DNA of 64,000 bases from positions 47,545,043 through 47,609,042 of the forward strand of contig NC_057926.1 of the NCBI RefSeq assembly GCF_018873765.1. Direction: 5' to 3'. Both the position numbers and the translations under genes were made by a program. Below, piece by piece: positions 4,095 through 62,500 of the stretch; position 1 is the first letter of the stretch, and each line of letters opens with the position of its first letter. Under the pieces are notes generated by a model that saw only the letters and a program-made list of their open reading frames with translations, was not told where the DNA came from and did not search any database. Source of the stretch: Telopea speciosissima (lineage: Eukaryota > Streptophyta > Magnoliopsida > Proteales > Proteaceae).

Positions 4095-5939
4095 ATGAGT
4101 CAATGAGAGGTTTTGTATGTGATGTTTTTGCTTTCAAAGATGCAGTATCATAGATTTACTGTTTTACATTCTATTTGTATCGTATCATAGATCTGTATGA
4201 CATGACATGACCAATCCCATATAGATTCCAAAAACCGAGGTCTCTAGTCATTTATTGAATGGCGGACTTTCTAAATTATGATGATTGTTAATGAATGGGT
4301 CCATTATAGGGGAAGGAAAGTTCTGGTTTGTGCAAAACACTACGCCTCCGATGGTGGGACACAAGGAGGGGTCGACGAGCAATACACGGTGACCACATAT
4401 GACGACCTGTATCGCATCCACATGACCCCTTATATTGATGCAATCGCCATGGGGGTGTCGACTATCATGGCTTCTTACTCTAGCTGGAATGGGATCAAGA
4501 TGCCTGCCAACCCTTTCCTCCTCACTCACATTCTCAAACAAGAGATGTCCTTCTAGGTAGCATAAAATTATTATACAACATCTCTAAATTTACATTTCTA
4601 CCCTTATCCGGGTCCTGGTACCCTAGTGGTCATCACTTTGTATGGGCTGCTACATGGGACAGGGTATGGTCATATCAGACTGGGAAGCAATTGACCGGAT
4701 GACCAACCCACCCGCTTCACACTACAAAGAAAGCCTGAAGGCATCAATCAACGCTGGAATCGACATGGTCATGATCCCTTACAAATACCACCAATACTTT
4801 ACATACATGACGGAGCTTGTGTCGTCCGGCGACATTCCGATCAGCTGGATTGACGATGTTGTGAGGCGAATCCTTAGGGTGAAGTTCATTCTTGGGCTTT
4901 TCGAATGGCCCATGGCTGACCGGTCTCTCCATCCCATGGTTGGACACAAGGTTAGTCCAACACCCAACTGAATTAACCGATTTCATTGATATGGGTATTT
5001 TCGTCATTAAAATTGGTATAACTTCTTAACCTTTTGGACCCACAGAAACCCAGGGATTTGGCAGGAGAAGCCATGAGGAAGAGTTTGGTGTTGTTGAAGA
5101 ACGGAAAGGGAGAGAAGAAGATGCTTCCTTTGAGCAATAATGCCCCGAATATTCTTGTGGTTGGGTCTCATGCACACAACATCGGCTACCAATGTGGAGG
5201 GTGGACTGTTTCAAGGAAGGGCAACTCAGGCAACATCACCGAAGGAACAACAATCTTAGAAGGCATCAAGAGGGCTGTTAGCAAGCAGACCCGGGTCGTG
5301 TTCCAAGAAAAACCTGACAAGCAATTCGTTAACAAGAACCGGGATTCCTCCTATGCAATTGTGGTTGTCGGCGAACTCCCATATGCGAAAACAGACGATG
5401 ATAGCAAAGAGCTCAGGCTTGCACAAGATGGGGAGGAGACAATCAAGACTATGTGCAAGGAGGTGAAATGTCTGGTTATCGTTGTGTCGGGTCGACCCGT
5501 TGTGATAGAGCCTTATGTTGACATGATGGAGGCATTGGTGGCTGCTTGGCTTCCATGGAGTGAAGCTGGAAAAGGGATTGCTGATGTTATAATTGGGGAT
5601 TATGATTTCCAGGGTAAGCTTCCGAGGACATTGTTTCGGCGGGTCGACCAGCTGCCGATGAAATTTGGGGATTTGTATTATGACCCGCTGTACCCGTTTG
5701 GGTATGGGCTCCAGATGGGTATCCAATCATACAAAAGAGGTCATGGTGTTTCATCCTCCTCTTTATCATCTTTTTCATCTATTTGATTGGTTATGGTATA
5801 GCTTATAACAAAAAATTTGTAGAAAAAGGGATATATGAGGATCAAGGATATGTTTGTTGTAGCATTTGTATAATTGTTGTTTTGATTAATGAGAATTTAT
5901 GAAATAGCAAGGCTATGTTTGGTATGCGTTCTTGGAATG

Positions 5940-6076
5940 TGTTACGGTGAAATCCGAGTAGATTTCTACTTGGTTGAGCTGTCCTGCACAAGCAAATAAC
6001 ACAAGAGAAAAGAGTGTCAGCCTGAACCTGTTAATACACTCCGATACCTTAGTTAGATCTGCAACAGATAAAGACT
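5940..6076. mobile_element. Solo-LTR family, incomplete copy
   Basis: This is the left end of the TG...CA solo LTR described at 16793-17425, directly after GAATG. Only the first part of the LTR is present; the sequence then continues into the common spacer. It is a fossil fragment. Confidence 0.7.
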
Positions 6077-8629: not shown

Positions 8630-8698
8630 GAGGAGATTTCAAAATCTGAATTCCACATACAGTCATTACTCGTCATTCCTATAGAAGGCTAAGAAAAT

Positions 8699-8731
8699 AT
8701 GAAGAAGACAGAAATCCAAAGAAGGAAAAGA
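8699..8731 (+). pseudogene. GH3 exon-1 stub (11 codons) after orphan promoter
   Basis: The start codon and about ten further codons match the beginning of exon 1 of copy 4 (MKKTEIQRR). The sequence then jumps into the end of the solo LTR that normally lies downstream of a gene. Everything between, the whole rest of a gene copy, has been deleted. It is the 5' remnant of a lost array member. Confidence 0.75.
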
Positions 8732-8734
8732 TGA

Positions 8735-8845
8735 TTCTGGTCTGGGTGCCGAGAATGGCATAACTTGGTTCACCCAGGACTCGCGTGGTTCAGTCCAGGG
8801 CGGTTGGTCGGTTCGGCCGTAATCCTGATTTGCAATGTGTCACTT
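8735..8845. mobile_element. Solo-LTR family, right-hand fragment
   Basis: It matches the last part of the LTR seen complete at 16793-17425 (words ctgggtgccgag and ggttcggccgtaatcc). It is incomplete at both ends. Confidence 0.65.
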
Positions 8846-10518
8846 GATAGGTTGATTTTGCATTCTCTGATAATAAAAACAACTATTTTTATCATATGTG
8901 AAATCGACTTAGAATGCAAGCATAATAGGAGTTTTTTTACTACATTCATGGAACCAGAGGCAATCCAAGATGGATGGATTATAGAGGTTTATGTAGAAAT
9001 TGCAACCCAGGAATATCGATTGGGGAAACAACTACCATTAATCCAAAGGGAATGTCAATGTGTAACAATCTTATTTAGTTTATGAAGGGGAGCGGATGGC
9101 ATACACTCTTTTTGAGCTTTTTTTTCAGTTTTTTCTTTGCTTAACTAGTACCATTCGGGAAAGAAAGCCTCAGTAAAAAGAGACAAATAATTGTGCAAGC
9201 TAAATCTATAAAATAAAAGATATAGGAACCAGCGTTGTTCATCAAATAGAGGAGTAGTTGCCGAGTACATTGATAGGGGAGTCCATAATCAAATCAAATC
9301 TATGTCAAAAAGAAGTTCCACATATATCTTAGAATTAATACAAAATTCAGCAATCTACTATCCCTATTTGCTATGAGCCTCTGCTTCAACTTCATGGTCT
9401 GTCACAATAAAACTGTACCGATCAAAACAAAATTGCCATGGAACAGAACCTCATATGCCTAACCTGCTTTGTGCTTGTCACAATCAATTACTTTGGAATA
9501 TGAGAAAAAATGATCAACACTCGGGAATGGGGCTTACCACCCCACCAGAGCTTACGAGGCCCTCTCCCTTGAAACATTTTTTAATATCAAGTGTATAGGG
9601 GTTAATGGGATTGTTTCCCCATTTAATGTTGTGGACCTAAATGCACTTGAGCATTTTACCCCCAAAAAAAAAAAAAATTGTACTAAAGCACAAGATCACC
9701 TAAGTTGTACTATGTTTGGAATAATTCAATGAAAAAAAATGCATGAAGTCATTTCCTTTTTTGGGTACCTCGGATTCTCGGAATGTAAGAAAAGAAAAGA
9801 AAAGGACCGAGTTTTCCATTACCCAAAGTTGATATTTCCATGGTTCGTGATCCTCTACTGTCGTCTGCCCATGCGGCCGGCTTGTAGCCTCACACAAGCA
9901 GGAGAAAAATGATCGCCCTACCCTTCCGGAGTAGGTGCTCAGGCAATGGATAGGGCAGTCATTTCGACCCTGCCTATGGAAGGCTTGACGCCGGCGGCAC
10001 GGGCAAGCAGCAGTAGAGGACCAAATTGTTTTTCCCTTTGTTTTTTATTATGTTTTTTTTTTTTTTAACTTTTTTGGAATAAGTTTTCCTCCACCCATAG
10101 AGGGTTGTTGCCCCACCATCCTTGGGTTCACAAACCTCTCCTAGGGTTTTGGTATGTTTCAAAATACACTTCTGATGCCACATCCCGCCCTTTCCCACCC
10201 TGTGGTATCCCCTTCAACATGGGTAACGGGAAACTCGATCCTACCTTTTATATATCTATAGCTTGTTTGCCAAACACAACGACTGAAATGAACATACATG
10301 TGAAAGGTAACCACCTGTCCTTTTTTTTTTTTTTTTTGGGAATTGGGAGCTTATATATATATTTTATACCTCCTGGTGAGCATGGGCCTGAAGTGCACCA
10401 CAGCTCACCAACTGTGCTAGGCAGCTGTTGTTACTATCTGCCCTTTTTGTTTTCATTAATAAGGAATAATTTCTTAGATCCACTAGATAAGAACTGAAAT
10501 TACAAGACAGGTAGGTTT
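8846..10518. repeat. Array spacer copy
   Basis: Colinear with 5930-7480 and 17440-19090: MITE remnant, cttaactagtacc block, T-rich tracts and the block ending ggtaggtttc. At 10518/10519 it is joined abruptly to the tail of a GH3 exon 7. There is no supported gene. Confidence 0.7.
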
Positions 10519-10582
10519 CCAGTCATACAAAAGAGGCCATAATGTTTCATCCACCTCCGCATCATCTTTTTCATCTATTTGA
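10519..10582 (+). pseudogene. GH3 exon-7 tail (last 20 codons)
   Basis: The final codons and stop match copies 3 and 5 ([19 protein letters not shown]), including the HNV variant that marks them. The rest of that copy is gone. The 3' flank that follows is also of the copy 3/5 type, so this is the relic of another Lys-lineage copy. Confidence 0.75.
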
Positions 10583-10728
10583 TTCATTATGGTATAGCTT
10601 ATAATAAAAAATTTGTAGAAAAAGGGATATATGAGGATCAAGGATATGTTTGTTGTAGCATTTGTATAATTGTTGTTTTGATCAATGAAAATTTATGAAG
10701 GCTGTGTTTAGTATACGTTCTTGGAATG

Positions 10729-11364
10729 TGTTGTGACGAAATCCGAGTTGATTTCTACTTGGCTGAGCTGTCCTGCACAAGCAAATAACACAAGAGAAAA
10801 GAGTGCCGGCTTGAACCTGTTAATACACTCCGATACCTAAGTTAGATCTGCAACAGATAAAGACTCAAATCCAAAGAGTAACAAGTGAGAGTGTACCTTT
10901 TACCTGAGGTAGGCATCGCTATTTATAGGATTGAGTTAGTAGATCGGTGTATAATTTTCTTGGTCGGAGATGGCAGGTAGTGTCTCACATAACTATAGGT
11001 GTCATTTCTAGGGTGTGACACCTATCGGGTTGGGAGCCACAAGCAAAGTGTGACCTTAACTGGATCGAACTATGGTCAGGTTAACTAACCAAATAGGTTT
11101 AAGTGCTTTTTGCCCAAGCTTTAGGGTTTTATCTGTGTGAACTAGGCCGATTCTTGACCTTAGTCTCCTAGTCAACTCGGTAGCTGTTCTTACGAATGAT
11201 CTGTTTGGGTTTATGTCTGACATCTGGTCTGGGTGCCGAGTATGGCGTAACTTGGTTCGCCTAGGACTCGCGTGGTTCAGTCCAAGGGGGGTGGTTGGTT
11301 CGACCGTAATCCTGATTTGCAATGTGTCACTTGATGACTAGCCAATCATAATTGTGGTTCATCA
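10729..11364. mobile_element. Solo LTR (636 bp) flanked by GAATG
   Basis: Begins TGTTGTGACG and ends GGTTCATCA, with GAATG on both sides (10724-10728 and 11365-11369). It is a single LTR without internal region, a fossil. Its ends and 5-bp target duplication are typical of LTR retrotransposons; the family is not determined. A cctataaatagcg word on the complement suggests the LTR reads on the minus strand. Confidence 0.75.
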
Positions 11365-12068: not shown

Positions 12069-14763
12069 CCCTGGTGATTCGGCCTTGTCAAACTCGGTCA
12101 AGGCGAGTCCCGTTTTTTAATTTTTTAATACAATAAATATGTATAAATTAGTAAAAACTAAGAAAAATACAGAAAAAAGGGAAAACCAGAAAAAAAAATC
12201 AAAGAATTCTGTATCAATGCATTTTGAGTTTATACCATTGAACAAGGTAAAAGAATTGAGGAGTTGAGGGTGGGTTTCTTGCTATTTTAGAATACGGATT
12301 TACTATTTTAGTCAACTCAGATTCTAAGTGAATCGGCTTTATTTATTTTTTTATAACGACTAAACACGCCAAGTCTGTCATGACTGGGGAAAAAAATACT
12401 GAGCCTTATTTGACAGCGACGATTTATGACCCAGTCTCCCCATCTTTTACCTTGACATAGTCTACACGACTCTTGGCCAGGTTTTCCAAAAATTTGACCG
12501 GCGACTCACCCAAGTCAAAACCTGATTTTCAAACTATGATCCCTAGTAGTATAGTATCCGCTATTCCTATACCATTTCGAAGATGGAGTAGGTCTCCTAT
12601 CCCCCAAAAGTAGCACCTACTATTGGAATAATCAACATCTCTTACCACGGATGTCGTCTCGTTCATCTTTTAACTAATTATTCTCTTTGAAAATGGTTGG
12701 GGTTTTGGATGTGTGGAACGCAGTGTGTAGGGATCCGCGGTGGGGTCGGTGCTACGAGAGCTACGGCGAGGATACACAGATTGTGAAGAGCATGGCCAAG
12801 ATCATACTAGGCTTACAGGGCTACCCTCCTCACAATCACACACTCGGTTACCCTTCGTCGCACGGGTACTTCCTTTTTCGTTTGAAGTTTATTTCCTTTT
12901 CAACCCTATTGAGGTCGGATCCTCTGCACATACATGCACTGAAGATCTTGGTTGTGTTTGGTATGCATTCTAGGTCAATTTTGCATTTTCAAACGATAAA
13001 AACAACTATTTTTAGTATTCGAGAATGCAAAATCGACCTAGAATGAATTCCAAGAATGCATGCCAAACGCAGCCCTAATGAGTCAATGAGAGGTTTTGTA
13101 TGTGATGTTTTTGCTTTCAAAGATGCCAATGCAGTATCATAGATTTACTATTTTACCTTCTATTTGTATCGTATCATAGATCCGTATGACATGACATGAC
13201 CAATCCCATATAGATTCCTAAAACCGTGGTCTCTAGTCATTTATTGAATGGTGGAGATTCTAAATTATGATGGTTGTTATTGAATGAGTCCATTACAGGG
13301 GAATGAAAGTTCTGGCTTGTGCAAAACACTACGCCGCCGATGGTGGGACACAAGGAGGGGTCGACGAGCACAACACGGTGACTACATATGACGACATGTA
13401 TCGCATCCACATGACCCCTTATATTGATGCAATCGCCATGGGGGTGTCGACTATCATGGCTTCTTACTCTAGCCGAACGGGATCAAGATGCATGCCAACC
13501 CTTTCCTCCTCACTCGCATTCTCAAACAAGAGATGTCCTTCCAGGTAGCATAAAATTATTATACAACATCTCTGAATTTACATTTCTACCCTTAACCTGT
13601 TCCTGACACTCTAGTGGTCATCACTATGTATGGGCTGCTACATGGGACAGGGTATGGTCATATCAGACTGGGAAGCAATTGACCGGATGACCAACCCACC
13701 CGGTTCACACTACAAAGAAAGCCTGAAGGCAGCAATCAACGCTGGAATCGACATGGTCATGATCCCTTACAAATACCAGCAATACATCACATATATGACG
13801 GAGCTTGTGTCTTCCGCGACATTCCGATCAGCAGGATTGATGATGCTTGTGAGGCGAATCCTTAGGGTGAAGTTCATTCTTGGGCTTTTCGAACAGCCCA
13901 TGGCTGACCGGTCTCTCCATCCCATGGTTGGACACAAGGTTAGTCCAACACCCAACTGAATCAACCGATTTCATTGATATGGGTATTTTCATCATTAAAA
14001 TTGGTATAACTCTTAACCTTTTGGACCCACGAAACATAGGGAATTAGCAAGAGAAGCCGTGAGGAAGAGTTTGGTGTTGTTGAAGAATAGAAATGGAGAG
14101 AAGAAGATGCTTCCTTTGAGCAAGAATGCCCCAAAGATTCTTGTGGTTGGGTCTCATGCACACAACATCGGCTACCAATGTGGAGGGTGGACTGTTTCAT
14201 GGAAGGGCGGCTCAGGCAACATCACGAAGGAACAACAATCTTAGAAGGCATCAAGAGGGCTGTTAGCAAGCGGCACCGGGTCATGTTCCAAGCAAAACCC
14301 GACAAGCAATTCGTTAACAATAACCGGGATTCTTCCTATGCAATCGTGGTTGTCGGTGAGCTCCCATATGCGGAAACAGACGGCGATAGTAAAGAGCTCG
14401 GCTTGCACAGGACGGGGAGGAGACAATCAAGGCGTGTGCGAGGAGGTGAAATGTCTCGGTTATCATTGTGTCGGGTCGACCCGTTGTGATAGAGCCTTAT
14501 GTTGACATGATGGAGGCATTGGTGGCTGCTTGGCTTCCAGGAGTGAAGTGGAAAAGGGATTGCGATGTTATATTTGGGGATTATGATTTCGGGGTAAGCT
14601 TCGAGGACATGGTTCCGTGGTCGACCACTACCGATGAATTTTGGGGATCCGTATTATGACCCGCTGTACCCGTTTGGGTATGGGCTCCAAATGGGTATGC
14701 AATCATACAAAAGAGGCCATGGTGTTTCATCCTCCTCTCGCATCATCTTTTTCATCTATTTGA
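12069..14763 (+). pseudogene. GH3 copy 2, exons 4-7 only (Glu lineage)
   Basis: It holds the end of intron 3 and exons at about 12724-12865, 13299-13544, 13651-13938 and 14032-14763, matching copy 4 closely. The promoter and exons 1-3 are missing, so it cannot make a normal GH3 enzyme. The nucleophile motif ISDWEAID and the acid/base Glu (PYAETDGD, about 14374) are retained. Many small indels break the frames of exons 4-7. Nearly all lie at CTG, CAG or CCG, for example cacag to cacg at the exon-7 acceptor and gctgga to gtgga. I suspect most of these are sequencing errors, so only the 5' loss is firm. Confidence 0.8.
12970..13075. mobile_element. Short foldback MITE in intron 4 of copy 2
   Basis: Same element as at 3969-4094. 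Its core arms, ttttgcattttcaaac and gaatgcaaaatcgacc, are clear here. The outer ends extend a few bases further on the left, into ggttgtgtttggtatg. Confidence 0.65.
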
Positions 14764-14915
14764 TTCGTTATGGTATAGCTTAAAACAAAAAATTTGCGTA
14801 AAAGGGATATATGAGGATCAAGGATATGTTTGTTGTAGCATTTGTATAATTGTTGTTTTGATCAATGAAAATTTATGAAGTACCAAGGATGTCTTTAGTA
14901 TGCGTTCTTGGAATG

Positions 14916-15492
14916 TGTTGCGGTGAAATCTGAGTGATTTCTACTTGGTTGAGCTATCCTACACAATCAAATAACACAAGAGAAAAGTGTGCGGCTTGAA
15001 CTGTTAATACACCGGAAACCTAAGTTAAATCTGCAGAGATAAAGACTCAAATCCAACCAAGAAGAAGTGATAAAGTCCCTTTTACCTCGAGGTAGGCATC
15101 GCTATTTATAGGATTGAGTTAGTAGATCGGTGTATGATTTTCCTGGTCGGAGATGGTAGGTAGTGTCTCACATAACTATAGATGTCATCTCTAGGGTGTG
15201 ACACTGTCGGGTTGGGAGCCACAAGGAAAGTGTGACCTTAATCGCATCGGACTATGGTCGGTTAACTAACCAAATAGGTTTAAGTGCTCGGTGCCCAAGC
15301 TTTAGGGTTTTATCACGAGTGAACTAGGCCAATTCTTGATCTTAGTCTTGAATTCGACTCGGTATGTTCTTTTGAATGATCTGTTTGGGTTTATGTTCGA
15401 CATCCTGGTTTGGGTGTCTAGTATGGCATAACTTGGTTCACCCAGGACTAGCAGGGTTCAGTCCAGGGCGGGTGGTCGGTTCGACCGTAATC
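14916..15492. mobile_element. Solo-LTR family, left part, at array junction
   Basis: It starts after GAATG like the complete solo LTRs, but the array junction at 15492/15493 (cgaccgtaatc|actttg) replaces its right end with the region just before exon 6 of copy 3. The identical junction is at 25330/25331. Confidence 0.75.
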
Positions 15493-16646
15493 ACTTTGTA
15501 TGGGCTGCTACAAGGGACAGGGTATGGTCATATCAGACTAGGAAGCAATTCACCGGATGACCAACCCACTCGGTTCACACTACAAAGAAAGCCTGAAGGC
15601 AGCAATCAACGCTGGAATCGACATGGTCATGATCCCTTACAAATACTAGCAATACTTCACATACATGACGGAGCTTGTGTCGTCCGGTGACATTTCGATC
15701 GGCAGGATTGGACGATCTTTGTGAGGCGAATCCTTAGGGTGAAGTTCATTCTTTGGCTTTTCGAACGGCCAATGGGTGACCAGTCTTTCCATCCCATGGT
15801 TGAACACAAGGTTAGTCCAACACCCAACTGAATTAACCGATTTCATTGATATGGGTATTTTTGTCATTAAAATTGGTATAACTTCTTAACCTTTTGGACC
15901 CACAGAAACACAGGGAATTGGCAAGAGAAGCCGTGAGGAAGAGTTTGGTGTTGTTGAAGAACGGAAAAAGAGGGAAGAAGATGCTTCATTTGAGCAAGAA
16001 TGCCCTGAAGATTCTTATGGTTGGGTCTCATGCACACAACATCGGCTACCAATGTGGAGGGTGGACTGTTTCATGGAAGGGCGGCTCAGGCAACATCACC
16101 GAAGGAACAACAATCTTAGAAGGCATCAAGAGGACAGTTAGCAAGCAGACCTGGGTCGTGTTCCAAGAAAAACCTGACAAGCAATTCGTTAACAAGAACC
16201 GGGATTCTTCCTATGCAATCATTGTTGTCGGCGAGCTCCCATATGCGAAAACAAACAGTGATAGCAAATAGCTCAGGCAAGCACAGGATGGGGAGGAGAC
16301 AATCAAGACTGTGTGCAAGGAGGTGAAATGTTCGGTTATCGTTGTGTCAGGTTGACCCGTTGTGATAGAGCCTTATGTTGACATGATGGAGGCATTGGTG
16401 GCTACTTGGCTTCCAGGGAGTGAAGCTGGAAAAGGGATTGCTGATGTTATATTTGGGGATTATGATTTCCAGGGTAAGCTTCTGAGGACTTGGTTCCGGC
16501 AGGTCGACCAGCTGTCGATGAATTTTGGGGATCCATATTATGACCTGCTGTACCCATTTGGGTATGGGCTCCAGATGGGTATCCAGTCATACAAAAGAGG
16601 CCATAATGTTTCATCCACCTCCGCATCATCTTTTTCATCTATTTGA
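15493..16646 (+). pseudogene. GH3 copy 3, exons 6-7 only (Lys lineage)
   Basis: Exon 6 is 15521-15810 and exon 7 is 15906-16646. Exons 1-5 were lost at the LTR junction. The codon right after the nucleophile Asp is TAG (15539-15541), a further TAG follows in exon 6 (AAATAC-TAG), and exon 7 has TAG at about 16267 and TGA at about 16353. The acid/base Glu is Lys (16248-16250). It is closely matched by copy 5 and shares the first stop and the Lys with copy 7. It is a non-functional relic. Confidence 0.85.
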
Positions 16647-16792
16647 TTCATTATGGTATAGCTTATAATAAAAAATTTGTAGAAAAAGGGATATATGAGG
16701 ATCAAGGATATGTTTGTTGTAGCATTTGTATAATTGTTGTTTTGATCAATGAAAATTTATGAAGGCTGTGTTTAGTATACGTTCTTGGAATG

Positions 16793-20336: not shown

Positions 20337-23300
20337 ATGAAGAAGACAGAAATCCAAAGAAGCAAAACCTCCCATAGCCATGGCGATCGCCATTGCTCCT
20401 CTCTCCACCTCCGTTCCTTTCTCTTTCTCTTTCCCTTCATCTTCATCTTCCCTTCTGCTTCAGCAGAAACAGCTCAAGCTCGTTACAAGGATCCAGGACT
20501 CCCGATCGAATACCGAATCTCAGATCTCCTTTCTCGGATGACAACTCATGAAAAGATCGGCCAAATGGCCCAAATCGATCGTTCCGTCGCCTCTCCTGAC
20601 GTTCTTATAAATCATTCCATCGGTTCGTCCCCTGCTTCTTATGTAGTTTTCTAAGTTTTCCTTCTTGTTTGAAGCTTAATTTTCTTGATTTCTTTGAAGA
20701 TCTAAAGATGAAACAATGACGATGAGGGTTGTTCTGGTTATTAATTTCAGGGAGTGTAGTGAACGGAGTAGTGCCGAACGTTCCTTCTGTTATAGCGCCA
20801 AATGCAACCCCTGCTATGTGGGCGGACTTGATCGATGGATTCCAGAAGTCTGCGTTATCGGCAAGGCTTGGGATTCCCATAATATATGGCACTGACGCAG
20901 TCCATGGCCATAATAACGCCCTCGGTGCCACTATTTTTCCTCATAACGTCGGCCTTGGAGCTGCAAGGTTTCTCTGACTTCTTGTTTCTCTGCTTGCTTG
21001 TGTGAATATTTTGGACTGTGAGAGAGACAGAAGCTTTAGATCAATAAATTATAAATTGCCACCAGATTTTTGGTTAATATTTTCTTGTTTTGTTCTGATG
21101 AAGGGATGAGGATTTAATGGTGAGGATCGGAAGTGCCACTGCTTTGGAGGTTCAAGGCACCGGAATGCAGTACACTTTCGCTCCCTGTGTTGCTGTAAGC
21201 TCTCTCTCTTTCTCTTTGGAAACTATAAAATCCTAGGAGGGTATATTTATGAACCGAAAGGAGTGAAATTATTCCATTCCTTTGGCTGCAAGCACGGGTA
21301 AGAGGAGCACTACTGCAACCAGGGTAGCAACAAATTTTTTTTATCTGTTTGGATTAATTTAATTAAGGGTTACAACTTCTAGAAACCTTCTACCTCCTTT
21401 AATTGTCTTTGTAATAAAAAAGCATTGACCAAAGGACTCTTGCACGATTGTGTCAAGACCGTAAAAAAAAATATATGATATTATATGAATTATTTAATGA
21501 AGTATGTATATAAAATGATATTTCATAGGATTTATATTCATTGAAAAAAAATATATGTTATCCTAAAAGAAATTTAAAATAAAGGTTTCAAATTCTTAGT
21601 TCAATATTTTTGTCAAGATAAGAATTTTCTTTTAATTAATTCTTATTTCAAATGGTTTTTAATTATTCAGATTAAAAAATCATATGCTCTCAATTCTTTT
21701 CTCTATACCTTTGTTTTATAAAAACTTGTATAAAAAAAATCTTAGTTCCAAGCGAAGTTACCAGTGGAAAGGCCACTTCAAAGTCCTAACTCACTAATTG
21801 GGTTAGAAACCGCAGGGGCAGCTTTTAAATCCCTAGCATAGTTGGAAAACCCAGTTTTCTAACTCAACTCGTCTTTCACAAAAACCTGGTGATTCGGCCT
21901 TGTCAAACTCGGTCAAGGCGAGTCCCGTTTTTTAATTTTTTAATACAATAAATATGTATAAATTAGTAAAAACTAAGAAAAATACAGAAAAAAGGGAAAA
22001 CCAGAAAAAAAAATCAAAGAATTCTGTATCAATGCATTTTGAGTTTATACCATTGAACAAGGTAAAAGAATTGAGGAGTTGAGGGTGGGTTTCTTGCTAT
22101 TTTAGAATACGGATTTACTATTTTAGTCAACTCAGATTCTAAGTGAATCGGCTTTATTTATTTTTTTATAACGACTAAACACGCCAAGTCTGTCATGACT
22201 GGGGAAAAAAATACTGAGCCTTATTTGACAGCGACGATTTATGACCCAGTCTCCCCATCTTTTACCTTGACATAGTCTACACGACTCTTGGCCAGGTTTT
22301 CCAAAAATTTGACCGGCGACTCACCCAAGTCAAAACCTGATTTTCAAACTATGATCCCTAGTAGTATAGTATCCGCTATTCCTATACCATTTCGAAGATG
22401 GAGTAGGTCTCCTATCCCCCAAAAGTAGCACCTACTATTGGAATAATCAACATCTCTTACCACGGATGTCGTCTCGTTCATCTTTTAACTAATTATTCTC
22501 TTTGAAAATGGTTGGGGTTTTGGATGTGTGGAACTGCAGGTGTGTAGGGATCCGCGGTGGGGTCGGTGCTACGAGAGCTACAGCGAGGATACACAGATTG
22601 TGAAGAGCATGGCCAAGATCATACTAGGCTTACAGGGCTACCCTCCTCACAATCACACACTCGGTTACCCCTTCGTCGCTTCTGGGTACTTCCTTTTTCT
22701 GTTTGAAGTTTATTTCCTTTTTCAACCCTATTGAGGTCGGATCCTCTGCACATACATGCACCTGAAGATCTTGGTTGTGTTTGGTATGCATTCTAGGTCA
22801 ATTTTGCATTTTCAAACGATAAAAACAACTATTTTTAGTATTCGAGAATGCAAAATCGACCTAGAATGAATTCCAAGAATGCATGCCAAACGCAGCCCTA
22901 ATGAGTCAATGAGAGGTTTTGTATGTGATGTTTTTGCTTTCAAAGATGCCAATGCAGTATCATAGATTTACTATTTTACCTTCTATTTGTATCGTATCAT
23001 AGATCCGTATGACATGACATGACCAATCCCATATAGATTCCTAAAACCGTGGTCTCTAGTCATTTATTGAATGGTGGAGATTCTAAATTATGATGGTTGT
23101 TATTGAATGAGTCCATTACAGGGGAATGAAAGTTCTGGCTTGTGCAAAACACTACGCCGCCGATGGTGGGACACAAGGAGGGGTCGACGAGCACAACACG
23201 GTGACTACATATGACGACATGTATCGCATCCACATGACCCCTTATATTGATGCAATCGCCATGGGGGTGTCGACTATCATGGCTTCTTACTCTAGCTGGA

Positions 23301-24598
23301 ACGGGATCAAGATGCATGCCAACCCTTTCCTCCTCACTCGCATTCTCAAACAAGAGATGTCCTTCCAGGTAGCATAAAATTATTATACAACATCTCTGAA
23401 TTTACATTTCTACCCTTAACCTGTTCCTGACACTCTAGTGGTCATCACTATGTATGGGCTGCTACATGGGACAGGGTATGGTCATATCAGACTGGGAAGC
23501 AATTGACCGGATGACCAACCCACCCGGTTCACACTACAAAGAAAGCCTGAAGGCAGCAATCAACGCTGGAATCGACATGGTCATGATCCCTTACAAATAC
23601 CAGCAATACATCACATATATGACGGAGCTTGTGTCTTCCGGCGACATTCCGATCAGCAGGATTGATGATGCTGTGAGGCGAATCCTTAGGGTGAAGTTCA
23701 TTCTTGGGCTTTTCGAACAGCCCATGGCTGACCGGTCTCTCCATCCCATGGTTGGACACAAGGTTAGTCCAACACCCAACTGAATCAACCGATTTCATTG
23801 ATATGGGTATTTTCATCATTAAAATTGGTATAACTTCTTAACCTTTTGGACCCACAGAAACATAGGGAATTAGCAAGAGAAGCCGTGAGGAAGAGTTTGG
23901 TGTTGTTGAAGAATAGAAATGGAGAGAAGAAGATGCTTCCTTTGAGCAAGAATGCCCCAAAGATTCTTGTGGTTGGGTCTCATGCACACAACATCGGCTA
24001 CCAATGTGGAGGGTGGACTGTTTCATGGAAGGGCGGCTCAGGCAACATCACCGAAGGAACAACAATCTTAGAAGGCATCAAGAGGGCTGTTAGCAAGCAG
24101 ACCCGGGTCATGTTCCAAGCAAAACCTGACAAGCAATTCGTTAACAATAACCGGGATTCTTCCTATGCAATCGTGGTTGTCGGTGAGCTCCCATATGCGG
24201 AAACAGACGGCGATAGTAAAGAGCTCAGGCTTGCACAGGACGGGGAGGAGACAATCAAGACTGTGTGCGAGGAGGTGAAATGTCTGGTTATCATTGTGTC
24301 GGGTCGACCCGTTGTGATAGAGCCTTATGTTGACATGATGGAGGCATTGGTGGCTGCTTGGCTTCCAGGGAGTGAAGCTGGAAAAGGGATTGCTGATGTT
24401 ATATTTGGGGATTATGATTTCCAGGGTAAGCTTCCGAGGACATGGTTCCGGCGGGTCGACCAGCTACCGATGAATTTTGGGGATCCGTATTATGACCCGC
24501 TGTACCCGTTTGGGTATGGGCTCCAAATGGGTATGCAATCATACAAAAGAGGCCATGGTGTTTCATCCTCCTCTGCATCATCTTTTTCATCTATTTGA
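20337..24598 (+). CDS. GH3 beta-glucosidase / beta-glucan exohydrolase, copy 4, intact
   Basis: Seven exons with GT-AG borders: 20337-20622, 20751-20967, 21104-21194, 22540-22685, 23122-23368, 23475-23762 and 23858-24598, giving 671 residues without a break. Residues about 26-43 form a hydrophobic signal peptide ([15 protein letters not shown]) after an unusually long basic stretch, so the enzyme should be secreted. The mature part begins near RYKDP. By alignment from memory to barley ExoI, the active-site residues are Asp144, Asp169, Arg175, Arg207, Lys256-His257 (CAKHY), nucleophile Asp335 (VISDWEAID), Trp478, Trp482 and acid/base Glu540 (PYAET). All are present. The N-terminal barrel spans to about residue 400 and the second alpha/beta domain fills exon 7. 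The family removes glucose from beta-glucans or glucosides; the exact substrate is unknown. It is almost identical to copy 6. Confidence 0.88.
21837..22353. mobile_element. hAT-like MITE in intron 3 of copy 4
   Basis: 517 bp, ends CATAGTTGGAAAA and TTTTCAAACTATG, flanked by a perfect 8-bp duplication ATCCCTAG (21829-21836 and 22354-22361). No coding capacity. Confidence 0.8.
22768..22898. mobile_element. Short foldback MITE in intron 4 of copy 4
   Basis: Inverted ends ggttgtgtttggtatgca and gcatgccaaacgcagccc; the same element is at 3969-4094. Confidence 0.7.
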
Positions 24599-24751: not shown

Positions 24752-25330
24752 TGTTGCGGTGAAATCGAGTGATTTCTACTTGGTTGAGCTATCCTACACA
24801 ATCAAATAACACAAGAGAAAAGTGTGCCGGCTGAACTCGTTAATACACCGGAAACCTAAGTTAAATCGCAATGAGATAAAGACTCAAATCCAACCAAGAA
24901 GAAGTGATAAAGTCCCTTTTACCCGAGGTAGGCATCGCTATTTATAGGATTGAGTTAGTAGATCGGTGTATGATTTTCCTGGTCGGAGATGGTAGGTAGT
25001 GTCTCACATAACTATAGATGTCATCTCTAGGGTGTGACACCTGTCGGGTTGGGAGCCACAAGGAAAGTGTGACCTTAACTGCATCGGACTATGGTCAGGT
25101 TAACTAACCAAATAGGTTTAAGTGCTCGGTGCCCAAGCTTTAGGGTTTTATCTGAGTGAACTAGGCCAATTCTTGATCTTAGTCTTCGGGTCGACTCGGT
25201 AGCTGTTCTTTTGAATGATCTGTTTGGGTTTATGTTCGACATCTGGTTTGGGTGTCTAGTATGGCATAACTTGGTTCACCCAGGACTAGCAGGGTTCAGT
25301 CCAGGGCGGGTGGTCGGTTCGACCGTAATC
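24752..25330. mobile_element. Solo-LTR family, left part, at array junction
   Basis: Identical situation to 14916-15492: the LTR begins after GAATG and is joined at cgaccgtaatc|actttg to the region before exon 6 of copy 5. Confidence 0.75.
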
Positions 25331-26481
25331 ACTTTGTATGGGCTGCTACAAGGGACAGGGTATGGTCATATCAGACTAGGAAGCAATTCACCGGATGACC
25401 AACCCACTCGGTTCACACTACAAAGAAAGCCTGAAGGCAGCAATCAACGCTGGAATCGACATGGTCATGATCCCTTACAAATACTAGCAATACTTCACAT
25501 ACATGACGGAGCTTGTGTCGTCCGGTGACATTTCGATCAGCAGGATTGACGATGCTGTGAGGCGAATCCTTAGGGTGAAGTTCATTCTTTGGCTTTTCGA
25601 ACGGCCAATGGGTGACCAGTCTTTCCATCCCATGGTTGAACACAAGGTTAGTCCAACACCCAACTGAATTAACCGATTTCATTGATATGGGTATTTTTGT
25701 CATTAAAATTGGTATAACTTCTTAACCTTTTGGACCCACAGAAACACAGGGAATTGGCAAGAGAAGCCGTGAGGAAGAGTTTGGTGTTGTTGAAGAACGG
25801 AAAAAGAGGGAAGAAGATGCTTCATTTGAGCAAGAATGCCCTGAAGATTCTTATGGTTGGGTCTCATGCACACAACATCGGCTACCAATGTGGAGGGTGG
25901 ACTGTTTCATGGAAGGGCGGCTCAGGCAACATCACCGAAGGAACAACAATCTTAGAAGGCATCAAGAGGACAGTTAGCAAGCAGACCTGGGTCGTGTTCC
26001 AAGAAAAACCTGACAAGCAATTCGTTAACAAGAACCGGGATTCTTCCTATGCAATCATTGTTGTCGGCGAGCTCCCATATGCGAAAACAAACAGTGATAG
26101 CAAATAGCTCAGGCAAGCACAGGATGGGGAGGAGACAATCAAGACTGTGTGCAAGGAGGTGAAATGTTCGGTTATCGTTGTGTCAGGTTGACCCGTTGTG
26201 ATAGAGCCTTATGTTGACATGATGGAGGCATTGGTGGCTACTTGGCTTCCAGGGAGTGAAGCTGGAAAAGGGATTGCTGATGTTATATTTGGGGATTATG
26301 ATTTCCAGGGTAAGCTTCTAAGGACTTGGTTCCGGCGGTCGACCAATTGTCGATGAATTTTGGGGATCCATATTATGACCTGCTGTACCCATTTGGGTAT
26401 GGGCTCCAGATGGGTATCCAATCATACAAAAGAGGCCATAATGTTTCATCCACCTCCGCATCATCTTTTTCATCTATTTGA
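25331..26481 (+). pseudogene. GH3 copy 5, exons 6-7 only (Lys lineage)
   Basis: Exon 6 is 25359-25646 and exon 7 is 25742-26481. It carries the same lesions as copy 3: TAG after the nucleophile Asp (25377-25379), further stops in exons 6 and 7, and Lys for the acid/base Glu (26084-26086). The 5' exons are lost at the same junction as in copy 3, so both descend from one already broken copy. Confidence 0.85.
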
Positions 26482-26627
26482 TTCATTATGGTATAGCTTA
26501 TAATAAAAAATTTGTAGAAAAAGGGATATATGAGGATCAAGGATATGTTTGTTGTAGCATTTGTATAATTGTTGTTTTGATCAATGAAAATTTATGAAGG
26601 CTGTGTTTAGTATACGTTCTTGGAATG

Positions 26628-34585: not shown

Positions 34586-35219
34586 TGTTGCGGTGAAATC
34601 TGAGTGATTTCTACTTGGTTGAGCTATCCTACACAATCAAATAACACAAGAGAAAAGTGTGCCGGCCTGAACCTGTTAATACACCCGGAAACCTAAGTTA
34701 AATCTGCAACAGATAAAGACTCAAATCCAACCAGTAAGAAGTGATAAAGTCCCTTTTACCTGAGGTAGGCATCGCTATTTATAGGATTGAGTTAGTAGAT
34801 CGGTGTATGATTTTCCTGGTCGGAGATGGTAGGTAGTGTCTCACATAACTATAGATGTCATCTCTAGGTTGTGACACCTGTCGGGTTGGGAGCCACATGG
34901 AAAGTGTGACCTTAACTGCATCGGACTATGGTCAGGTTAACTAACCAAATAGGTTTAAGTGCTCGGTGCCCAAGCTTTAGGGTTTTATCTGAGTGAACTA
35001 GGCCAATTCTTGATCTTAGTCTTCGGGTCGACTCGGTAGCTGTTCTTTTGAATGATCTGTTTGGGTTTATGTTCGACATCTGGTCTGGGTGCCGAGTATG
35101 GCAAAACTTGATTCACCCAGGACTAGCAGGGTTCAGTCCAGGGCGGGTGGTCGGTTCGACCGTAATCCTGATTTTCAATGTGTCACTTCATGACTAGTCA
35201 GTCATATTGTGGTTCATCA
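34586..35219. mobile_element. Solo LTR (634 bp) after copy 6
   Basis: Begins TGTTGCGGTG after GAATG (34581-34585), ends GGTTCATCA before TAATG (35220-35224), so the target duplication differs by one base. This copy is complete, unlike its partners after copies 2 and 4, and shows what the array looked like before the LTR/exon-6 junction formed. Confidence 0.75.
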
Positions 35220-35483
35220 TAATGCATTATAGGTTGATTTTGCATTCTCTGGTAATAAAAACAACTATTTTTGTCATATGTGTAATCGACTTAGAATGCA
35301 AGCCTAATAGGAGTTTTTCTACTACATTCATGGAACCGGAGGCAATTCAAGATGGGTGGATTATAGAGGTTTATGTAGAAATCGCAATCCAGGAATATCA
35401 ATTGGGGAAACAACTACCATTAATCCAAAGGGAATGTCAATTTGTGTAACAATCTTATTTAGTTTATGAAGGGGAGTGGATGG

Positions 35484-44854: not shown

Positions 44855-44862
44855 TATAAATA
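44855..44862 (+). promoter_or_regulatory. TATA box of GH3 copy 7
   Basis: TATAAATA 77 bases before the start codon, conserved with copies 4 and 6. Confidence 0.65.
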
Positions 44863-46430
44863 GAAGAGATTTCAAAATCTGAATTCCACATACAGTCGTT
44901 ACTCGTCATTCCTACAGAAGGCTAAGAAAATATGAAGAAGACAGAAATCCAAAGAAGCAAAACCTCCCATAGCCATGGCGATCGCCATTGCTCCTCTCTC
45001 CACCTCCGTTCCTTTCTCTTTCTCTTTCCCTTCATCTTCATCTTCCCTTCTGCTTCAGCAGAAACAGCTCAAGCTCGTTACAAGGATCCAGGACTCCCGA
45101 TCGAATACCGAATCTCAGATCTCCTTTCTCGGATGACAACTCATGAAAAGATCGGCCAAATGGCCCAAATCGATCGTTCCGTCGCCTCTCCTGACGTTCT
45201 TATAAATCATTCCATCGGTTCGTCCCCTGCTTCTTATGTAGTTTTCTAAGTTTTCCTTCTTGTTTGAAGCTTAATTTTCTTGATTTCTTTGAAGCACTCA
45301 AGATGAAACAATGACGATGAGGGTTGTTCGGGTTATTAATTTCAGGGAGTGTAGTGAACGGAGTAGTGCCGAACGTTCCATCTGTTATAGCGCCAAATGC
45401 AACCCCTGCTATGTGGGCGGACTTGATCGATGGGTTCCAGAAGTCTGCGTTATCAGCAAGGCTTGGGATTCCCATAATATATGGCACTGACGCAGTCCAT
45501 GGCCATAATAACGCCCTCGGTGCCACTATTTTTCCTCATAACGTCGGCCTTGGAGCTGCAAGGTTTCTCTGTCTTCTTCTTTCTCTGTTTGCTTGTGTGA
45601 ATATTTTGGACTTTGAGAGAGACAGAAGCTTGAGATCGTTAAAATATAAATTGCCACCAGATTTTGGATAATATTTTCGTGTTTTGTTCGGATGAAGGGA
45701 TGAGGATTTAATGGTGAGGATCGGAAGTGCCACTGCTTTGGAGGTTCAAGGCACCGGAATGCAGTACACTTTCGCTCCCTGTGTTGCTGTAAGCTCTCTC
45801 TCTTTCTCTTTGGAAAATATAAAATCCTAGGAGGGTATATTTATGAACCGAAAGGAGTGAAATTATTTCATTTCTTTTGCAACAAGCACGGGTAGGAGGA
45901 GCACTCCTGCAACCAGGGTAGCAACAAATTTTTTTATCTGTTTGGATTAATTTAATTATGGGTTACAACTTCTAGAAACCTTCTACCTCCTTTCATTGTC
46001 TTTTTAAGAAAAAAGAATTGACCAAAGGACTCTTGCACGATTGTGTCAAGAACGTATAAAAAAATATATGATATTATATGAATTATTTAATGAAATATTT
46101 ATATAAAATGATATTTCATAGGATTTATATTCATTGAAAAAAAATACATGTTATCCTAAAAGAAATTTAAAGTAAAGCTTTCAAATTCTTAATTCAATAT
46201 TTTTGTCAAGATAAGAATTTTCTTTTAATTAATTCTCATTTCAAACGATTTTTAATTATTCAAATTAAAAAATCATATGGTCTCAATTCTTTTCTCTATA
46301 CCTTTTTTTTATAAGAGCTTGTATAAAAAAAAATCTTAGTTCCAAGCTAAGTTACCAGAGGAAAGGCCACTTCAAAGTCCTAACTCACTAATTGGGTTAG
46401 AAACCGCAAGAGCAGCTTTTCAATCCCTAG

Positions 46431-46947
46431 CATAGTTGGAAAACCCAGTTTTCTTACTCGATTCGTCTTTCAGAAAAACCTGGTGATTCGGCCTTGTTAA
46501 ACTCGGTCAAGGCTAGTCCCGTTTTTAAATTTTTTAATACAATAAATATGTATAAATTAGTAAAAAATCAGAAAAATACAGAAAAAAGGGAAAACCAGAA
46601 AAAAAAAAATCAAGGAATTCTATATCAATGCAATTTGAGTTTATACCATTAAACAAGATAAGAGAATTGAGGAGTTGAGGGTGGGTTTCTTGCTATTTTA
46701 GAATACGGATTTACTAGTTTATTCAACTCAGATTCTAAGTGAATCGGCTTTATTTATTTTTGAAAACGACTAAACTCCCCAAGTTTGTCATGACTGGGGA
46801 AAAAATACTGAGTCTTATTTGACACCGATGATTTATGACCCAGTCTCCCCATCTTTTACATTGACCCAGTCTACACGACTCTTGGCCAGGTTTTCCAAAA
46901 ATTTGACGAGCGACTCACCCCAGTCAAAACCCGATTTTCAAACTATG
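46431..46947. mobile_element. hAT-like MITE in intron 3 of copy 7
   Basis: Same element as at 21837-22353, with ATCCCTAG on both sides. Confidence 0.78.
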
Positions 46948-47367
46948 ATCCCTAGTAGTATAGTATCCGCTATTCCTATATCATTTCGAAGAAGGAGTAG
47001 GTCCCCTATCCCCCAAAAGTAGCACCTACTATTGGAATAATCAACATCTCTTACCACGGCTGTCATCTCGTTCATCTTTTAACTAATTATTCTCTTTGAA
47101 AATGGTTGGGGTTATGGGTGTGTGGAACTGCAGGTGTGTAGGGATCCGCAGTGGGGTCAGTGCTACGAGAGCTACAGCGAGGTTACGCAGATTGTGAAGA
47201 GCATTGCCAAGATCATACTAGGCTTACAGGGCTACCCTCCTCACAATCACACACTCGGTTACCCCTTCGTTGCTTCTAGGTACTTCCTTTTTCTGTTTAA
47301 AGTTTATATCCTTTTTCACCCCTATTGAGATCGGATCCTCTGCACATACGTGCACCTGAAGATCTTG

Positions 47368-47494
47368 GCTGTTTTTGGTATGCATTCGAGGTCAATTTTG
47401 CATTTTCAGATGATAAAAACAACTATTTTTAGTATTCGAGAATGCAAAATCGACCTAGAATGAATTCCAAGCATGCTTACCAAACGCAGCCCTA
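47368..47494. mobile_element. Short foldback MITE in intron 4 of copy 7
   Basis: Inverted ends ctgtttttggtatgca and cttaccaaacgcagcc; same family as 3969-4094. Confidence 0.65.
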
Positions 47495-49171
47495 ATGAGT
47501 CGATGAGAGGTTTTGTATGTGATGTTTTTGCTTTCAAAGATGCCAATGTAGTATCATAGATTTACTATTTTACCTTCTATTTGTATCGTATCATAGATCC
47601 GTATGACATGACTTGACCAATCCCATATAGATTCCTAAAACCGTGGTCTCTAATCATTTATTGAACGGTGGATGATGATTGTTATTGAATGGGTCCATTA
47701 CAAGGGAAGGAAAGTGCTGGCTTGTGCAAAACACTACGCCGCCAATGGTGGGACACGAGGGGTTGACGAGCACAACATGGTGGCCACATATGACGACCTG
47801 TATCACATCCACATGACCCCTTATATTTATGCATGCAATCGCCATGGGGGTGTCGACTATCATGGCTTCTTACTCTAGCTGGAACGGGATCAAGATGCAT
47901 GCCAACCCTTTCCTCCTCACTCGCATTATCAAACAAGAGATGTCCTTCCGGGTAGCATAAAATTATCTCTGAATTTACATTTCTACCCTTAACCTGGTCC
48001 TGACACCCTAGTGGTCATCACTTTGTATGGGCTGCTACATGGGACAGGGTATGGTCATATCAGACTAGGAAGCAATTGATCGGATGACCAACCCACCCGG
48101 TTCACACTACAAAGAAAACCTGAAGGCAGCCATTAACGCTGGAATCGACATGGTCATGATCCCTTTCAAATATCAGCAATACCTCACATACATGACGGAG
48201 CTTGTGTCGTCCAACGACATTCCGATCAGCAGGATTGACGATGCTATGAGGCGAATTCTTAGGGTGAAGTTCATTCTTGGGCTTTTCAAACGGCCCAGGG
48301 CTGACTGGTCTCTTCATCCCATGGTTGGACACAAGGTTAGTCCAACACCCAACCGAATTAACCGATTTCATTGATATGGGTATTTTCATCATTAAAATTG
48401 GTATAACTTCGTAACCTTTTGGACCCACAGAAATATAGGGAATTGGCAAGAGAAGCTGTGAGGAAGAGTTTGGTTTTGTTGAAGAACGGAAAAGGAGAGA
48501 AGAAGATGCTTCCTTTGAACAAGAATGCCCCCAAGATCTTTGTGGTTGGGTCTCATGCACACAACATCGGCTACCAATGTGGAGGGTGGACTGTTTCATG
48601 GATGGGCAGCTCAGGCAACATCACCGAAGGAACAACAATCTTAGAAGGTATCAAGAGGGCTGTTAGCAATCAGACCCAGGTCGTGTTCCAAGAAAAATCC
48701 GACAAGCAATTCGTTAACAAGAACCAGGATTCCCCTTATGCAATCGTGGTTGTGGGCGAGCTCCCATATGCGAAAACAGACGGTGAATGCAAAGAGCTCA
48801 GGCTAGCACTAAACGGGGAGGAGACAATCCAGACTGTGTGCAAGGAGGTGAAATGTCTGGTTATCGTTGTGTCAGGTCGACCTGTTGTGATAGAGCCTCA
48901 TGTTGACATGATGGAGGCATTGGTGGCTGCTTGGCTTCCATGGAGTGAAGCTGGAAAAGGGATTGTTGATGTTATATTTGGGGATTATGATTTTCAGGGT
49001 AAGCTTCTGAGGACATGGTTCCGGCGGGTCAACCAGCTGCCAATGAATTTTGGGGATCCGTATTATGACCCGTTGTACCCGTTTGGGTATGGGCTCCCGA
49101 TGGGTATCCAATCATACAAAAGAGGCCATAGTGTTTCATCCTCCTCTACATCATCTTTTTCTTCTATTTGA

Positions 49172-49805
49172 TTCGTTATGGTATAGCTTATAACAGAAAA
49201 TTTTGTAGAAAAAGGGATTTATGAGAATCAAGGGTATGTTTGTTGTAGCATTTGTATAATTGTTGTTTTGATCAATGAAAATTTATGAAATACCAAGACT
49301 GTGGTTGTATGCGTTCTTGGAATGCATTATAGGTTGATTTTGCATTCTTGGGTAATAAAAATAATTATTTTGATCATATGTGAAATCAACTTAGAATGCA
49401 AACATAATAAGAGTTTTGATGCTACATTCATGGAAGCAGAGGCATTCCAAGATGGATTGTAGAGGTTGATGTAGAAATCGCAACCATTGAATATCGATTG
49501 GGGAAACAACTACCATTAATCCAAAGGATATGTCAATTAGTGTAACAATCTTATTTAGTTGATGACAGGGAGCAGATGGCATACACCTTTTTTGAGCATT
49601 TTTTCAGTTTTTTCTTGGTTTTGTCTAGTAAGATTAGGGAAAGAAAGCCATAGTAATAGGAGAGAAATAATTATGCAATTTAAACCTACAAAATAAAATA
49701 GAATATGCGGCGTTGTTTATCAACTGGAGGAGTAGTTGCCGAGTTGATAAGGGAGTCTATAATCAAGTCAAATCAAATCTATGTCAAAGAAAATATTCCA
49801 CACAT
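49172..49805. repeat. 3' flank of copy 7 with empty LTR site
   Basis: Contains the 3' UTR region and an uninterrupted flanking MITE. At 49316-49325 the word ggaatgcattatag shows the target where other copies carry the solo LTR. It then follows the common spacer in diverged form until about 49805. No gene. Confidence 0.7.
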
Positions 49806-59464: not shown

Positions 59465-59472
59465 TATATAAA
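59465..59472 (+). promoter_or_regulatory. TATA box of GH3 copy 8
   Basis: TATATAAA about 89 bases before the first ATG; the following gaatctgaattccac is conserved with copies 4, 6 and 7. Confidence 0.65.
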
Positions 59473-59553
59473 GAGAAGGGGGGAAATCAGAATCTGAATT
59501 CCACTTACAGTTAACCCAATCGTCATCAGTATAGACAATCCAGTATAGAAGGC

Positions 59554-62500
59554 ATGAGAAGAAATATGAAGACGACTGAAACCCAAAGAAGCAAAACCTC
59601 CCATAGCCATGGCGATCGCCATTGCTCCTCTCTTCACCTCTGTTCTTTTCTCTTTCTCTTCTTCTTCTTCTTCTTTATCTTCCCTTCTGCTTCAGCAGAG
59701 ACAGCTCTACATCGTTACAAGGATCCAAGACTGCCGATCGAATACCGAATCTCAGATCTCCTTTCTCGGATGACCATTCATGAAAAGATCGGCCAAATGG
59801 CCCAAATCGATCGCTCCGTTGCCTCTCCTGCCGTTCTTATAAATCATTCTATTGGTTCGTCTAGTTTTTCCTTCTTGTTTTAAGCTTAATTTTCTTGAGT
59901 TCTTTGAATCTCAAGAAGAGGAAGAAATGATAGAATGAGGTTTTTCTTTCTGATTATTTTCAGGTAGTGTGTTGAACGGTGGAGGAAGCGCTCCAGCGGC
60001 AGATGCAACCCCTGTTATGTGGGCGGACATGATCGATGGATTCCAGAAGTCTGCGTTGTCAGCTAGGCTTGGAATTCCTATAATGTATGGCACTGACGCA
60101 GTCCATGGCCATAATAACGTCCACGGCGCCACCGTTTTCCCTCACAACATCGGCCTTGGAGCTGCAAGGTTTCTCATCTTCCTCTTTCTCTGTTTGTGTG
60201 AATCTCTGCTACTGTTAAAGAAACAGAACCTTCACTATTGAGATCATTTAAGATAAATTTCCATCAGATTTTGGTGAATTTTTACTTGTTTTCTCATTTT
60301 CTGGTTTTGTTCTTCTATTGAAGGGATGAGAATTTAATGGTGAAGATCGGAGAAGCCACTGCTTTGGAGGTTCTCGGCACCGGAATTCCGTATACTTTCG
60401 CTCCATGTGTTGCTGTAAGTTCTCTCTCCCTCTCCCTCTCCCTCTCCCTCTCCCTCTCTCTAATCTTTACCCAAAAATAAAATGGAGAAATCCAATTGGG
60501 ATTGTTTAATCGTAGATTAATTAATCTTTCAGTCATTCTTGTCTCGGTGGTATAACTTCCCTTTAATTATTTAATCTTCTGAAAATGCTTGGGGTTTTGT
60601 CTGTGTGGAACTCAGGTGTGTAGGGATCCACGGTGGGGTCGGTGCTACGAGAGCTATAGCGAGGATACGCAGATCGTAAAGAGCATGTCCAAGATCATAT
60701 TGGGCCTACAGGGCTACCCTCCTCACAATCATACCCTCGGTTACCCCTTCGTCGCTTCTGGGTATTTCGCTTCCTACCTTTATCTCAATCAATTTCTGAA
60801 ATCGAATCAGTCAATGAAAGGATCCAACCGTCATTCCTTTCACTTTTGATATGAAAGATTCCAATTTGATGGCTTTGACATTTATGGCGAATCTAGAGCT
60901 TTTTAGATCAAGGGTCCAATTCCATCACATCATTTAAAGTAACAACAAAATAAAACATGGTACTAACCTACTAGGCTATCTATTGTGGCTGGGGATCTAC
61001 TATAATGAATAATTTAGTGGGACCCACAAAGTCTTGTCCTGATATTCTACACTGGAGGCAAATTAACATAAATAATTGGACTAAAAAGTGGGAACCGGTC
61101 CATAATAATTTCCCGGTTTATTGTGTTATTGGTTCACAGTAATTCTGATTATTAAGTGGAGTGGCTTCTACGGTTCTACCTCGCGTCTCTGTCTCCAATT
61201 TTTTTATTGAATGGGTCACTATTAACAGGGGAAGAAATGTGTTGGGTTGTGCAAAACACTATGCGGGCGATGGAGGGACACAAGGAGGGGTAGATGAGTA
61301 CAACACGGTGACCACATATGATGACCTGTACCGCATTCACATCACCCCTTATATTGACGCAATAGCCATGGGAGTTTCAACTGTCATGGTTTCATACTCT
61401 AGCTGGAACGGCGTCAAGATGCATGCCAATCCTTTCCTCCTCACTCGCATTCTCAAACAAGAGATGTCCTTTCAGGTAGCCCAAAAATATCATGCAACAT
61501 CTCTGAATTGACATTTCTACCCTTCACTTTGTCTTGAGTGGTTTGCTACATGGGACAGGGAATGCTCATAACAGATTGGGAAGCAATTGATCGGATCACC
61601 GACCCACCCGGTTCACACTACAAAGAAAGCCTGAAGGCAGCCATCAACGCTGGAATCGACATGGTTATGATCCCTTACAAATACCAGCAATACCTCACAT
61701 GCATGACGGAGCTTGTGTCGTCCGGTGAGATTCCGATCAACAGGATTGACGATGCTGTGAGGCGAATCCTAAGGGTGAAATTCATTGTTGGGCTTTTCGA
61801 GCGGCCCATGGCTGACCGTTCTCTCAATCCCATGGTTGGACACACGGTTAGACCAAAACCCAACTTAATTAATCTATTGCCCTTTGTGTTCTCCATGTTA
61901 TAATTTATTGATATGGGTATTTTGGTCACAAGAATTGGTTTAACTTTTTAATCTTTGGAACCCACAGAAACACAGGGAATTGGCAAGAGAAGCCGTGAGG
62001 AAGAGTTTGGTATTGTTGAAGAACGGGAAAGGAGAAAAGAAGATGCTTCCTTTGAGCAAGAATGCCCCCAAGATTCTTGTGGTTGGGTCTCATGCACACA
62101 ACATCGGCAACCAATGTGGAGGATGGACTATTTCATGGCAAGGCACCTCAGGCAACATCACCGAAGGAACAACAATCTTAGAAGGCATCAAGAAGGCTGT
62201 TAGCAAGCAAACCCGGGTAGTGTTCCAAGAAAAACCCGACCAGCAATTTGTTAACAAGAACCGGGATTCTTCCTACGCAATCGTGGTTGTCGGCGAGCTC
62301 CCATATGCGGAAACATTCGGTGATAGCAAAGAGCTCAGGCTAGCACTGGATGGGGAGGAGACTATCAAGACTGTGTGCAAGGAGGTGAAATGTCTGGTTA
62401 TCGTGGTGTCGGGTCGACCCGTTGTGATAGAGCCTTATGTTGACATGATGGAGGCATTGGTGGCTGCTTGGCTTCCAGGGAGTGAAGCAGGAAAAGGAAT

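Follow-up and report, generated by a model that had tools for sequence, protein, structure and literature searches.

Four of the eight GH3 gene copies in the window (the whole stretch of DNA analysed here, 64,000 bp, C11:47545043-47609042) carry Lys in place of the catalytic acid/base Glu at codon 491, and all four are broken. We consider it likely that this Lys is a neutral change in four pseudogenes, which founded no expressed lineage and probably arose more than once. In our assessment, the observation is true and its cause ordinary: neutral change, recurrent or shuffled, among the dead genes of a plant GH3 array. A change of catalytic residue found in several tandem copies can mimic a lineage-founding event if the array is read only in part; here, wider sampling, an insertion marker and the mapping of lesions indicate decay of the ordinary kind, together with a duplication by which a gene was truncated at the outset. 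A literature search on plant GH3 tandem pseudogenes and plant glycoside-hydrolase pseudoenzymes found nothing relevant, which is not proof of absence in print.

Codon 491 and the state of the copies

The eight copies are listed below; codon 491 was read directly in each.

1557..5795, + strand: copy 1 (Lys); seven exons recognisable, deletions in exon 1, TAG at 4554 where exon 5 ends; codon 491 AAA at 5388..5390
12723..14772, + strand: copy 2 (Glu); limited to exons 4-7, with numerous 1-2 bp indels; codon 491 GAA at 14373..14375
15487..16655, + strand: copy 3 (Lys); exon 6-7 fragment, stop at Trp286 and further stops, 5' end formed by a duplication junction; codon 491 AAA at 16248..16250
20337..24598, + strand: copy 4 (Glu); complete, with 7 exons coding for 671 aa and with GT-AG introns; codon 491 GAA at 24200..24202
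25325..26490, + strand: copy 5 (Lys); exon 6-7 fragment, junction as in copy 3, stop at Trp286 and further stops; codon 491 AAA at 26084..26086
30178..34432, + strand: copy 6 (Glu); complete, coding for 670 aa, with GT-AG introns; codon 491 GAA at 34034..34036
44926..49180, + strand: copy 7 (Lys); all seven exons present, exon 5 frameshifted (net +1), stop at Trp286 at 48066; codon 491 AAA at 48773..48775
59566..62705, + strand: copy 8 (Glu); complete, coding for 667 aa, with GT-AG introns, outside copies 1-7 in the tree; codon 491 GAA at 62310..62312

This reading of all eight copies reproduces the AAA codons that a preliminary description of the same DNA had reported for copies 1, 3, 5 and 7 and the GAA codons it had reported for copies 4, 6 and 8, and it supplies the coordinate missing there for copy 2, which indeed keeps Glu.

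The residue at codon 491 aligns with E491 of barley ExoI with no gaps nearby, in the phmmer alignment (1ex1 numbering) and in a full-length alignment alike, in agreement with its earlier identification as the acid/base. In barley ExoI, Asp285 is described as the nucleophile, Glu491 as the acid/base and Trp286/Trp434 as the clamp (PMC9508125). Copy 4 aligned with barley ExoI over 601 residues (E 1e-237), with the Asp285 and Glu491 pair and the Trp286/Trp434 clamp all present; it also contains both Pfam GH3 domains (PF00933, 234.7 bits; PF01915, 152.2 bits; copy 4 was the only copy scanned). Copy 4 thus resembles the GH3 enzyme ExoI (PDB 1ex1, 3wli) in its nucleophile motif ISDW and its acid/base Glu, whereas the Lys copies differ in having Lys at the acid/base position and in being broken throughout. 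Having neither Glu491 nor an intact frame, they do not qualify as GH3 enzymes of the ExoI type.

Disabling lesions were present in 4/4 Lys copies, which are accordingly pseudogenes, and no intact frame with Lys-491 was found among the Lys copies examined. Four stops each occur in copies 3 and 5. The Trp286 codon in exon 6 has changed from TGG to TAG in copies 3, 5 and 7 (at 15539, 25377 and 48066); as had been noted before, copy 1 lacks this stop and has TGG at 4681. Glu is not a mark of intactness without exception: copy 2 is also broken, and several Glu copies outside the window have frameshifts in exons 6-7. The many 1-2 bp indels of copy 2 (12723-14772) occur in a sequence that is 98-99% identical to copy 4, and are possibly assembly errors.

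Within the assembly examined (822,943,500 bp, 1287 contigs), the GH3 array spans at least about 47.26 to 47.61 Mb on C11, beyond the window, and holds both intact and broken members. More GH3 copies lie at C11 48.34-48.38 Mb and on C7, C6, C9 and C1 among the matches listed; the extent of the array and the lists of copies are lower bounds. Among 38 loci that reach codon 491, 31/38 read Glu, 6/38 Lys and 1/38 a stop, in line with the earlier view that Glu is ancestral. Besides the window (4 Lys and 4 Glu, n = 8), the census covers C11 outside it (n = 17; 16 Glu and one TAA at C11:47309251), five exon-7 fragments on C11 that form a type of their own (Glu at 47478503, 47415938 and 47368616; Lys at 48345304 and 48363734) and other contigs, all Glu (C7, n = 2; C6, n = 2; C1, n = 4). 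It leaves out seven distant matches that span the codon (≤39% identity; C2, C9, C1 and C4) and fragments that end short of it, such as 47494421, 47430702 and C9:6773087.

The Lys of the exon-7 fragments at C11:48345304 and C11:48363734 is encoded by AAG, and their three nearest relatives read GAG. Judged by its different sequence background, this AAG is an event separate from the AAA of the window. The two AAG carriers are 18.4 kb apart and may represent one event.

Phylogenetic position of the Lys copies

A Lys clade was tested on four alignments, and three trees carry the valid AU tests. The first used 26 of the 33 extracted rows, without seven that were fragmentary or diverged and with codon 491 included; on it Lys requires two changes, and a Lys clade had an AU p of 0.061. 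With codon 491 dropped, 16 rows of exons 6-7 gave three changes to Lys (AU p 0.083), and the same number of rows with a short 3' flank added again gave three (AU p 0.034). The Lys copies formed one clade in 0% of 200 bootstrap trees in all three runs, although two of the three valid AU tests exceeded 0.05. Two further AU runs with a long flank (p 0.018 and 0.016) were set aside, as were site patterns past about 24886, because the alignment of copy 1 is wrong past its 3' deletion. Copy 8 falls outside the copy 1-7 group, which bears out its proposed role as outgroup. Copy 7 is the first branch of the copy 1-7 group (89/83, 84/85 and 81/88; not starred), and the two Glu copies of C7 fall within that group (starred, 100/99).

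An insertion in the 3' flank serves as a marker:

34586..35220, + strand: 635-bp insertion as present in copy 6, flanked by AATG direct repeats

It is carried by copy 1 (the first ~137 bp), by copies 2-6 and by both C7 copies. Copy 7 has the empty site, as do six members of the array that lie outside the window; copy 8 is unscored, its homology ending before the site. Lys therefore marks no simple lineage, because Glu copies on C7 lie inside the group and the insertion is absent from copy 7. The preliminary description had proposed that a single GAA to AAA change founded the Lys lineage; the bootstrap trees (0/200), the AU tests (p 0.034-0.083) and the insertion pattern disagree. It had also named the failure of the Lys copies to group in a tree as grounds for abandoning that proposal, and such failure is what we observe, with moderate statistical weight. 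The evidence against a single Lys clade is modest (AU p 0.03-0.08). Its further claim that Lys is older than the Trp286 stop needs a nested tree, which was not recovered; both changes are homoplastic on the best tree.

Individual sites in exons 6-7 conflict. Codon 491 is the only one derived in copies 1, 3/5 and 7 alone. Besides Lys, copy 7 shares four derived sites with copies 3/5, the Trp286 stop among them, and two with copy 1 (one a transversion), while copies 1 and 3/5 share two; three sites, plus 24660 in the flank, unite all copies except copy 7. Of the 323 sites that vary in exons 6-7, 79 are homoplastic on the tree, and two-state transitions account for 62 of those. Parallel hits in the array are demonstrable: a Gln codon (23601 of copy 4) became TAG separately in copies 3/5 and in C11:47399, and not in the close twin of the latter, 47461. 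Copies 7 and 3/5 have five C:G to T:A changes in common, against 0.95 expected at even rates (P 0.003) and 2.2-2.8 under gamma rate variation (P 0.07-0.15). Because the five exceed the even-rate expectation, parallel mutation suffices only if sites vary in rate.

Origin of the alternation

Copies 3 and 5 start at an identical junction (15487 and 25325), where the insertion in the 3' flank of a Glu gene is joined to a Lys-type intron 5. They were truncated from birth and never had exons 1-5. The interval repeats with a 9.83-kb period, and copies 4 and 6 are 99.4% identical over 8.6 kb. Between copies 1 and 2 lies a related piece:

10508..11300, + strand: remnant of a lost gene of the type seen in copies 3 and 5, consisting of the exon-7 tail and the 3' flank

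The remnant matches copies 3 and 5 at 99% identity and the other copies matched at 88-90%. Its own codon 491 is gone; by comparison with copies 3 and 5, the lost gene was presumably a Lys gene. At 8693-8736, the first bases of a GH3 exon 1 are joined to 3'-flank sequence, which marks where a gene between copies 1 and 2 was deleted. Strict alternation was not the original order, because the gene that left the remnant stood between these two copies.

In the order of events that we infer, a Lys-type gene (now the remnant) would once have stood ahead of a Glu gene, and the segment from its intron 5 through the 3' flank of the Glu gene would have been duplicated in tandem with the 9.83-kb period. 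The outcome would be the series Glu, Lys fragment, Glu, Lys fragment, Glu, that is, copies 2 to 6. Copies 1, 7 and 8 would be separate, older members, the Lys-Glu order at the ends being incidental. The alternation is largely due to a tandem duplication of 9.83 kb with a breakpoint in intron 5 of a Lys-type gene. The earlier suggestion that Glu/Lys gene pairs had been multiplied holds for a unit of one Glu and one Lys member (copies 2-3, 4-5 and 6) and would not extend to copies 1, 7 and 8.

Selective constraint and competing explanations

Changes unique to the Lys copies in exons 6-7 comprise 60 nonsynonymous and 4 stop changes to 18 synonymous ones, as compared with 57 nonsynonymous to 61 synonymous in nine Glu groups pooled (64:18 vs 57:61; Fisher p 3e-5). 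By copy, the nonsynonymous to synonymous counts are 21:11 for copy 7, 17:3 for copy 1 and 22 plus 4 stops to 4 for copies 3/5; copies 1 and 3/5 pooled give 43:7, nonsynonymous plus stop against synonymous. The counts of copy 7 alone fit neutrality and also fit the Glu copies (p 0.11 vs Glu). In the Lys copies as a set, constraint on the protein is undetectable.

The share of C:G to T:A changes was higher in the Lys copies (43/95) than in the Glu copies (58/202; p 0.006), with no excess in copy 1 (6/23). The frequency of CHG or CG context among these changes was no higher in the Lys set than in the Glu set (p 1.0 and 0.69). Methylation-driven decay (deamination), tested by context, gained no support, the CG/CHG/CHH split being alike in both sets. 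As a separate observation, window positions 44670-45570, covering the copy 7 promoter and exons 1 and 2, form a candidate gene conversion tract in comparison with copy 6.

Several points stand against the neutral and probably recurrent origin that we favour: the sites that copy 7 shares with copies 3/5 and with copy 1, the 21:11 ratio of copy 7, the two AU values above 0.05, the CHG and CG contexts that do not set the Lys copies apart, and copy 1 with its ordinary share of C:G to T:A changes. In a rival scenario, which we regard as possible, though unlikely, one GAA-to-AAA event was spread among neighbouring copies by gene conversion, or Lys was gained at the base of copies 1-7 and converted back to Glu in the C7 lineage and in that of copies 2, 4 and 6; the carriers are, or became, pseudogenes regardless. 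Conversion does look real in this array, since about 0.9 kb around exons 1-2 shows 98-100% identity between copies 7 and 6, as against 92-97% elsewhere; copies 7 and 3/5 have the Trp286 stop and three other sites in common along with Lys; and were the C7 copies and copies 2/4/6 sisters, a gain with a reversal would cost the same as two gains. However, the matching runs over codon 491 comprise just 4, 4 and 2 polymorphic sites (pairs 7-1, 7-5 and 1-5), and by permutation no pair has a significant longest run (lowest p 0.056, for a pair without copy 7). The sites that join and those that separate copy 7 are interleaved, leaving no tract, which is a weak argument, as old tracts get overwritten.

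The preliminary description held that a single change gave rise to a Lys lineage expressed as a catalytically altered protein before its decay. Exons 6-7 of copy 1 are open and those of copy 7 hold one stop, the 21:11 ratio of copy 7 is compatible with constraint during part of its history, and a Lys clade is rejected by some AU tests, not all. Against this, a Lys clade is contradicted by the Glu copies of C7 and by the insertion, copies 1 and 3/5 stand at 43:7, and every Lys copy is disabled; we hold this course of events to be highly improbable. Expression as an altered protein is unsupported, with all four Lys copies broken and copies 3 and 5 lacking exons 1-5 from the start. There is a very slim chance that a full-length Lys-491 GH3 protein, perhaps ancestral to copies 1 and 7, served for a time as a glucan-binding pseudoenzyme, next to a working Glu neighbour, and then decayed. 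That the Lys codons stem from faulty base calling or from misassembly of a repeat array is scarcely credible: the clustered 1-2 bp indels in copy 2 and in some array copies outside the window are typical of poorly polished repeats, but four copies in the window have the Lys codon by a clean substitution, and across the region aligned the Lys copies are 5-11% apart from each other and from the Glu copies (3 vs 5, 0.9%), so that reads should separate them.

With neutral change in dead copies as the preferred reading, a GH3 exohydrolase array would grow through unequal recombination and shed dead copies. The array resembles the tandem-array pseudogenes of plant enzyme families in its stops, frameshifts and truncations, its lost constraint and its unit duplication. 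It departs from them in nothing unusual, the loss of the acid/base codon being one hit among many.
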